Of a stretch of DNA of 59,390 bases, positions 13,894 through 29,941 are shown one piece after another (within the stretch, counting starts at the first letter, position 1; each line of letters starts with the position of its first letter). The translations under genes were made by a program, and so were the position numbers. The notes under the pieces were generated by a model. The model saw nothing but the letters and a program-made list of their open reading frames with translations. It was not told the DNA's origin and searched no databases. The DNA is taken from positions 1 through 59,390 of the forward strand of contig CATJXY010000036.1 of NCBI GenBank assembly GCA_949744505.1, given 5' to 3'. This DNA comes from an uncultured Erysipelotrichaceae bacterium. Lineage in GTDB: Bacteria > Bacillota_I > Bacilli_A > Erysipelotrichales > Erysipelotrichaceae.

Positions 13894-14622
13894 TTATAGC
13901 TTAGAAGCTGCTGCTTTATCAACAATAACAACTACATCATCATGATTTTGTAATACACTGGCAGGACAATCTTCTGAAACAGGCCCTTTGATCAATCCAT
14001 AAATTGCATCAGCTTTGTTTTCACCATTTGCCACCAACAAAATCTTCTTTGCTTTCATAACAGTTGCAATTCCCATTGTAATTGCATGAGTCGGAACATC
14101 TTCTTCCAAATCCGTAAAGAAACGTGCATTATCTTGTCTTGTACGCTCTTTTAATTCAACGATATGAGTCAAAGAATCAAAGGATGTTCCCGGTTCATTA
14201 AATCCGATATGACCGTTTCCACCGATACCCAATAATTGAATGTCTACTTGATAATCGCTCATAGCTTGTTCATACTTGCGACATTCACCATCTAAATCTT
14301 CACTATCGCCAACCGGAATATGTACATTCTTTTCAGGAATCTCAATTCCTTCAAAAAGATTTTTGTGCATGAATGTATAATATGTTTCACGATGATTCTT
14401 TTTCAATCCTACATATTCATCCAAGTTGAATGTTGTGACATTTTCATAAGAAGTACCGTTTTCTTTATGATCTTGAATCATGTTCTTGTAAAGTCCGATT
14501 GGGCTTGATCCCGTTGCCAATCCTAATACAGGATGTGACTTAGAATCGATAACTTCTTTCATCACTTTAAATGCTTCTCTACTTAATTCTTCGTAGTTTT
14601 CTACAACGATCAATTTAATCAT
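13894..14622 (-). CDS. nagB: Glucosamine-6-phosphate deaminase
   Basis: The 242-residue enzyme converts glucosamine 6-phosphate to fructose 6-phosphate and ammonia. Motifs present are LATGSSPIGLY (phosphate binding), FNLDEYVGL with the catalytic D68, and GIGGNGHIGFNEPG with H138. It is the short Gram-positive form without the allosteric C-terminal extension of E. coli. NagA activity is encoded about 14 kb away in the Nudix fusion (28048-29577). A cre-like palindrome lies upstream of its promoter. Confidence 0.96.
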   Translation of the reverse strand: MIKLIVVENYEELSREAFKVMKEVIDSKSHPVLGLATGSSPIGLYKNMIQDHKENGTSYENVTTFNLDEYVGLKKNHRETYYTFMHKNLFEGIEIPEKNVHIPVGDSEDLDGECRKYEQAMSDYQVDIQLLGIGGNGHIGFNEPGTSFDSLTHIVELKERTRQDNARFFTDLEEDVPTHAITMGIATVMKAKKILLVANGENKADAIYGLIKGPVSEDCPASVLQNHDDVVVIVDKAAASKL

Positions 14623-28047: not shown

Positions 28048-29577
28048 TTATATACTTTTATAAACAATTCTTCCTTCTACTATTGTTAAAACACAATTAA
28101 ACTGTTCATCAAGAATGCACAAATCAGCATCAAATCCTTGTCTTAATGTCCCTTTATGTTCTTCTAAATGTAGAATTTTTGCCGGATTAACACATGCCAT
28201 TTCAACTAATTCACATAAATTAGCATGGCATATATCATGCATATTTCTTAGTCCTTCATTTAAACTCATGGTACTACCGGCTAATCGTCCTGTCTGTGGA
28301 ACATATGCTTTTCCCTCTTTCTTTTCAATCAATAAATCAGAAAAATTATATTGCCCATCCGGCAAAGATTTAGCATTCATAGCGTCAGTAACTAAAATTA
28401 TTCTTTCAGATCCGATTGAATTAAAAGTCATCTTCATGACTTGCGGATCTAAATGAACTGTATCTGTGATCATTTCACAATATCCATTTGAATTAAATGC
28501 CGCTGTCACACATCCCGGATTACGATGAGTATGTTGACTCATTGCATTGTACAGATGTGTATATCCGGATGCTCCATTATCAATCGCAGTCATTGCGCAT
28601 GCACAAGATGCATTTGTATGACCAATCATCATTGCAATTCCCATTTTTTTACCTTTTTCAAGAAGGATATCAGCTCCTTCCTGATTAGGACAAAATGTCA
28701 TGGATTTGATTAATCCCGGCTTTACTTCTGTCATCTCTTCAAATTCTTTTTCATCATATGCCTTAATATAGAGAGGATTCATAACTGCCTTGTATTCTTT
28801 TGAAAGATACGGTCCCTCACTATGAATTCCTAAAAAACAAGCTCCTTCCGCACAAGGATGACATTCTTTATAACTATTTAATATCTTCATCATTCGGTTA
28901 TGTTCAACAACAGTGAGGCTACCTAAAAAACCTGTCACACCATCCTTAATCAAGTCTTTGGAAACTGCATCAATTGTTTCTTGTGTTCCATCTGTAAAGT
29001 CGTGACCCATTGCACCATGAATATGGGTATCAATCATTCCAGGAATAACTATTTGTCCTTTCGCATCAATAACTTCTGAACAATTACAATCAATATTTTC
29101 CGCAATTTCTTCAATTTTCCCATTTTTAATTAAAATCGATCCACATTGTAATTCTGTTTTTTCATCCACTATAATATGTGCATTTTTAATCAAAATAGTA
29201 TGATCATAAATTAAAGAAAGCATTTTTAAAATCGGCTTATCGGCATCAGAAAATGCATAATTTTCTAATTCATCTACACTAACCCATTTCATTTCACTAT
29301 GTGCATTTAAACGAATATTTCCACCTTCAATTTCACAAAGATACGCATGAACTTGAATCTCTTCTTGATCAAAATCAGTGATACTTGTTAGATATTTTAT
29401 TACTTTTACATCTAACTCTAATTCTTCTTTGATTTCTCGGATAACCGCATCTTCATTCGTTTCACCGATTTCCACTTTTCCCCCGGGAAACTCCCATACT
29501 CCCTCATGAGAGCCTTTTCCTCTTTTTGCGATTAAAAATTGTTCATCTTTTTTTATAACACCACATATAACTTTCAT
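28048..29577 (-). CDS. nagA: Nudix hydrolase - N-acetylglucosamine-6-phosphate deacetylase fusion
   Basis: The 509-residue protein joins two complete enzymes. Residues 1-123 are a MutT-like Nudix domain with box G33-x5-E39-x7-REIKEELEL (the usual glycine near the end is E54) and FPGGKVEIGE. Residues about 124-509 are a full NagA amidohydrolase: DTHIHG (H185, H187), IHSEGPYLS (E254), GHTNAS, THLYNAM and LVTDAMNA. NagA deacetylates GlcNAc-6-phosphate; nagB, about 13 kb away, completes the route. No stop or frameshift separates the domains. An internal ATG at codon 119 could allow separate NagA synthesis. Confidence 0.92.
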   Translation of the reverse strand: MKVICGVIKKDEQFLIAKRGKGSHEGVWEFPGGKVEIGETNEDAVIREIKEELELDVKVIKYLTSITDFDQEEIQVHAYLCEIEGGNIRLNAHSEMKWVSVDELENYAFSDADKPILKMLSLIYDHTILIKNAHIIVDEKTELQCGSILIKNGKIEEIAENIDCNCSEVIDAKGQIVIPGMIDTHIHGAMGHDFTDGTQETIDAVSKDLIKDGVTGFLGSLTVVEHNRMMKILNSYKECHPCAEGACFLGIHSEGPYLSKEYKAVMNPLYIKAYDEKEFEEMTEVKPGLIKSMTFCPNQEGADILLEKGKKMGIAMMIGHTNASCACAMTAIDNGASGYTHLYNAMSQHTHRNPGCVTAAFNSNGYCEMITDTVHLDPQVMKMTFNSIGSERIILVTDAMNAKSLPDGQYNFSDLLIEKKEGKAYVPQTGRLAGSTMSLNEGLRNMHDICHANLCELVEMACVNPAKILHLEEHKGTLRQGFDADLCILDEQFNCVLTIVEGRIVYKSI

Positions 29578-29611
29578 ATCTCTCTTTTAAAAGAAAATGC
29601 ACTTACGTGCA

Positions 29612-29941
29612 TTATTCTTCCTCTTCCTCCTCTTTTTCTTTTTTCATTTCCCAATGGCTAAGGATCGCTAATGCAATTCGCATAACAATTATACCTAAAA
29701 CTAATTGTACATCCTGCCAGCTTTTAATTGTAATTGTTTTTAAGATTTCTCCCCCCAAAAGAAATGTCAATCCCAAAGACAATCCATGTAAAAGCATATA
29801 GCTCGTACGACGATTTCTCTTTATGAGATCCATAACACCTCTAATACCGGAACAAATAATAATTAAAACTCCCGCAAACTCAAAGGATATAATTGCCCCT
29901 TCTATAAGTAATAATAATAATTCTTCAAACATTTCAAACAT
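29612..29941 (-). CDS. DUF1622 family membrane protein
   Basis: The 109-residue protein has two to three membrane segments and the family pattern of DUF1622: an N-terminal IISFEFAGVLIIICSGIRG helix, a basic loop, then HGLSLGLTFLLGGEILKTI and GIIVMRIALAILSHWE. The C-terminus is a run of lysine and glutamate (KKEKEEEEEE). Function unknown. It lies 34 bases upstream of the Nudix-NagA gene on the same strand. Confidence 0.85.
   Translation of the reverse strand: MFEMFEELLLLLIEGAIISFEFAGVLIIICSGIRGVMDLIKRNRRTSYMLLHGLSLGLTFLLGGEILKTITIKSWQDVQLVLGIIVMRIALAILSHWEMKKEKEEEEEE

Follow-up and report, generated by a model that had tools for sequence, protein, structure and literature searches.

The window analysed here, a stretch of 59,390 nucleotides, represents contig C36 of a 1.85 Mb assembly (98% complete, 70 contigs) from a gut-type Firmicute whose relatives within the Erysipelotrichaceae appear to include Holdemania and Longicatena. 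On its minus strand, at 28048..29577, lies an open reading frame of 509 aa, beginning with ATG and recognised by Pfam and NCBIfam models of two enzyme families. The N-terminal part (residues 1-122; 29212..29577, minus strand) is a Nudix domain and the C-terminal part (residues 127-509; 28048..29199, minus strand) a NagA domain. Codons 123-126 (I Y D H; 29200..29211, minus strand) form the junction, where the C-terminal helix of the Nudix domain ends and a joint of 2-3 residues follows. No stop interrupts the 509 codons that run from the ATG to the terminal stop and both families are matched far above chance, in agreement with the sequence-only reading, which had described two complete enzymes in one open frame. 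GC and GC3 are similar in the two halves.

A ribosome-binding site of modest strength (AGAGAG, -4.9 kcal/mol; 29578..29588, minus strand) precedes the frame, and a terminator-like hairpin with a T-rich tail (29596..29613, minus strand) lies between it and the upstream DUF1622 gene. The only copy of nagB (glucosamine-6-phosphate deaminase) found in the genome maps to 13894..14622 (minus strand), 13 kb from the fusion gene. An internal ATG, put forward earlier as a possible source of separate products, is indeed present at codon 119 (29221..29223, minus strand), but without a ribosome-binding site: Shine-Dalgarno pairing there amounts to -0.7 kcal/mol, compared with a random-site median of -2.2 and with -4.9 at the start of the frame. 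Codons 129 and 137, at +0.6 and +1.7 kcal/mol against the same median, likewise have no such site. All three were ruled out as starts of a separate NagA on these grounds, and a separate NagA product is thus unlikely.

The Nudix and NagA halves

The N-terminal half belongs to the Nudix superfamily, with PF00293 matching residues 7-117 at 74.1 bits (Pfam gathering cut-off 21.1), and an AlphaFold2 model built with the Nudix alignment gives block-mean pLDDT values of 86-98 over residues 1-120. Its Nudix box spans residues 33-55, GKVEIGETNEDAVIREIKEELEL. Compared with the pattern GX5EX7REUXEEXGU, the box is intact at E39, R47, E48, E51 and E52, the sole departure being G to E at position 54, which is also variable among orthologs. 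At the group-invariant columns the half departs in 2 of 33, as its relatives do. The top-scoring models are those of pyrimidine-(d)NTP diphosphatases and MutT, each under its cut-off: the NudG-type model NF007834 yields 91.9 bits (cut-off 156) and TIGR00586, the MutT 8-oxo-dGTP diphosphatase model, 77.9 bits (equivalog cut-off 97.9). Because of these scores we call the half MutT/NudG-like only. The nearest structures are those of MutT and CTP pyrophosphohydrolase proteins (5X1X, 3HHJ, 3GWY, 2RRK). From its sequence, the half is best described as a putative MutT/NudG-like house-cleaning pyrophosphatase. Six other Nudix genes occur in the genome, the nearest to the fused one being 28-31% identical, and the latter appears to be the sole member of its ortholog group there.

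The C-terminal half is matched by TIGR00221 (nagA) over residues 128-502 with 295.1 bits, above the NCBIfam equivalog cut-off of 225.65, and by the Pfam model Amidohydro_1 over residues 176-505. Among the residues kept in invariant columns are H185 and H187 (HxH), E254, H320, H341, R352, H375 and D398. The metal and catalytic motif of NagA consists of HxH, E, H, H and D, together with an Arg that binds the substrate phosphate (PMC6016474). By family membership, it is a safe inference that this half is a GlcNAc-6-P deacetylase.

Among 82 columns invariant in 13 clade relatives the NagA half differs at 11, other members doing so at 0-5, which raised the question of decay. The tree places it near the base, in an unsettled position, of a fully supported clade centred on the Erysipelotrichaceae, its branch measuring 0.59 against a median of 0.47. 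Since this branch is of ordinary length there is no sign of decay, and the basal position is sufficient reason for the 11 departures; decay was therefore set aside. The genome encodes four further NagA paralogs, each above the TIGR00221 cut-off and together forming a separate clade, so that, with the fused copy, there are five candidates for the deacetylation of GlcNAc-6-P. Within these 1.85 Mb the five paralogs are distributed over C59 (two in tandem), C43, C40 and the window (28048-29577). C40 and C59 are equally long, yet they are not duplicates.

The joint between the halves

Aligned separately, the two halves meet almost residue to residue. In-frame homology to stand-alone Nudix proteins reaches about residue 124-126, and homology to stand-alone NagA resumes at 127-128. 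The Nudix orthologs end in ILEKLNHTYKK-stop or ILNALKKYENII-stop where the fusion reads ILKMLSLIYDH, while stand-alone NagA orthologs start with MKTLIKNAHVI or similar where the fusion continues as TILIKNAHII. In the two AlphaFold2 models a helix (111-123/124) is followed, after a joint of 2-3 residues, by a strand (127-136), and with the NagA alignment pLDDT is mostly above 90 from residue 131; each model is confident in one half only and gives no relative placing of the domains. The boundary proposed from the letters (Nudix 1-123, NagA from about 124) is therefore recovered to within 3-4 residues as an end-to-end joint.

The two alternative frames stop exactly at this joint, with a TGA overlapping codons 124/125, and ATGATCATACTATTTTGA. 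The fused state consequently hinges on the joint being free of indel error, and a one-base error around codons 124-128 is the main technical doubt on the fusion. Adjacent or overlapping Nudix and NagA genes, in that order, could have been merged if a one-base indel in the sequence or assembly removed a stop; a single indel at the joint would split the frame, and the 70-contig assembly offers no second copy for comparison. Against such an artefact, both flanking homologies stay in frame up to 3 residues or less from the joint, where a long homopolymer is absent, and the internal starts have no ribosome-binding site. Furthermore, in no examined relative are both genes adjacent and in the same direction, so that an overlapping ancestral pair is unsupported. 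We consider an artefact unlikely.

Fused and separate genes among relatives

The fusion is known from one assembly, and its genus is represented by this single species. Searches of 195 relatives and 273 family genomes (overlapping sets) yielded no further Nudix-NagA frame, nor did the strong matches from the class sample (395 genomes) and the phylum sample (392 genomes), which overlap with the former sets and in which a convergent fusion of distant origin could escape notice. Among GTDB candidate loci (the best 80 of 577) and in the plasmids and phages searched there was also no second case, and a GTDB scan with the single protein as query returned no match. A recurrent (selected) fusion would be recognised by several species sharing the domain order, and no such sharing was observed in the sets searched. 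The literature searched likewise contained no description of a Nudix-NagA fusion. The architecture, which the sequence-only reading had suspected to be uncommon, is on present data new within everything searched and restricted to one species.

The orthologs of both halves are separate genes. On the Nudix side the best ones (53-57% identical) stand alone in five other genera, and on the NagA side the clade orthologs (up to 47%) are also stand-alone, often adjoining deoC; both kinds are found within a single family. In one relative (G038) a single contig carries both orthologs, separated by 180 kb, and in another (G043) they lie on different contigs. The only neighbour case (L024/L049), considered as an ancestral Nudix-NagA gene pair, was rejected: the genes are convergent and more than 500 bases apart, with an intervening gene, and the Nudix gene is a more distant homolog (39%). 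It had been anticipated that relatives keeping two separate genes at this place would speak against the fusion. Separate genes they do keep, yet the two lie apart and unlinked in the genome; this points to a young fusion and does not speak against a fusion in this assembly. As a side observation, the NagA matches of four loci (L025, L062 and L063 of genus g27, and L035) contain one in-frame TGA inside the matched stretch, which may reflect read-through in the start region or a disrupted gene.

The neighbourhoods of five stand-alone Nudix orthologs (L094-L098) contain a Gfo/Idh-like oxidoreductase, so named by reading its sequence, in five of five, and an HD-domain protein (HD + HD_assoc_2, dNTPase-like) in four of five. 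The HD neighbours fit a nucleotide-pool role for the Nudix half. A search of the window's genome for the HD protein, run without a positive control, gave no match.

Interpretation of the fusion

We favour as probable a real, young and lineage-restricted in-frame fusion, giving rise to a bifunctional protein in which two complete enzymes would fold independently and operate without substrate channelling. A deletion or rearrangement probably brought the MutT/NudG-like gene and the NagA gene together, with loss of the stop of the former and the start of the latter. A single mRNA with a single start site would then be translated into the 509-residue protein. Its N-terminal half may use Mg2+ or Mn2+ to hydrolyse (d)NTPs that are damaged or in surplus, and its C-terminal half, presumably dimerising as other NagA proteins do, would convert GlcNAc-6-P to GlcN-6-P and so supply NagB. 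The fusion would hold the halves at a constant 1:1 ratio and add dimerisation, with probably no coupling of the reactions. The most economical account is that the fusion is incidental, with both activities kept and co-expression forced. An accidental gene fusion, which had been offered beforehand as an alternative, is thus the best fit. The single assembly, with no congener beside it, and the 11 deviating columns of the NagA half, though its basal position can account for these, count against this explanation.

A functional coupling would be a different matter. The Nudix half could act on a nucleotide sugar, or on another nucleotide linked to amino sugars, with its reaction tied to GlcNAc-6-P deacetylation. 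Fusions commonly signal linked functions, and the lone nagB of the genome resides on the same contig. Nevertheless, the Nudix half is matched best by models of pyrimidine-(d)NTP diphosphatases and MutT and not by those of sugar-nucleotide hydrolases, none of the ortholog neighbours named above is an amino-sugar gene, as far as the loci read show, and the fusion does not recur in the other lineages searched. We regard such a coupling as quite unlikely, and the earlier suggestion of UDP-GlcNAc or nucleotide-sugar turnover finds no support here, given MutT-type models, orthologs beside an HD dNTPase-like gene and NagA orthologs located elsewhere.

A regulatory role, in which nucleotide binding by the Nudix domain would gate NagA with no need for catalysis, can also be envisaged. 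Nudix domains in some transcription factors act as regulators, the short passage from helix to strand in the models could transmit motion, and the four other NagA paralogs would leave this copy free to specialise. Yet regulatory Nudix domains often have no intact Nudix box, whereas all five of the Glu and Arg residues listed above are retained here, and an intermediate state is absent among relatives. This role seems highly improbable. That the protein is the first bifunctional Nudix-NagA enzyme with linked activities, whether through hydrolysis of amino-sugar nucleotides or through nucleotide gating of NagA, is likewise very doubtful. If the linkage were true, amino-sugar salvage would respond to the nucleotide pool. 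The coupled reading would be the one of greater consequence, but it has no support here so far.

If confirmed by reads, the fusion would provide a clean case of unrelated enzymes joined without a linker and with full active sites in both, arising in a lineage that has five NagA paralogs. It would also advise caution in reading pathway linkage, in the 'Rosetta stone' manner, from a fusion seen in one species.

With MutT/NudG-type Nudix hydrolases the N-terminal half shares a full-length domain, an intact Nudix box and the Nudix fold; it differs from them in scoring under the equivalog cut-offs, in being joined to NagA and in the replacement of the box Gly by Glu. The C-terminal half resembles NagA (TIGR00221), of which the B. 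subtilis protein (2VHL) is the closest solved structure by sequence, in its full-length match, in its HxH metal motif of binuclear type and in keeping the remaining metal and catalytic residues. Unlike in ordinary NagA, a whole Nudix enzyme replaces the usual start.

A second enzyme-like region is found in the same NagA clade and family, in the NagA-ManA-like fusion of G034 and G077. A 710-aa ORF (L047, at 1529-3661 of contig C41 in G034; L048 and L143 in G077) encodes NagA followed by a region resembling class I mannose-6-phosphate isomerase, so named by reading the sequence, Pfam having reported no PMI domain. A second ManA-like gene lies downstream of this ORF, and in G038 (L106) a similar ManA-like gene is separate, adjoining nagA and convergent with it. 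In contrast to Nudix-NagA, this fusion has a C-terminal partner from sugar-phosphate metabolism and is common to two species.

Nudix is likewise one half of a two-domain protein in NF006530/PRK08999, whose partner we take to be a thiamine-phosphate-synthase-like protein. Fusions involving Nudix domains are known, thiamine enzymes being one kind of partner, and Tnr3/Nudix is listed among functional ones (PMC4921024). In the thiamine-type Nudix fusions the partner belongs to thiamine metabolism, whereas here it is NagA, in one species.
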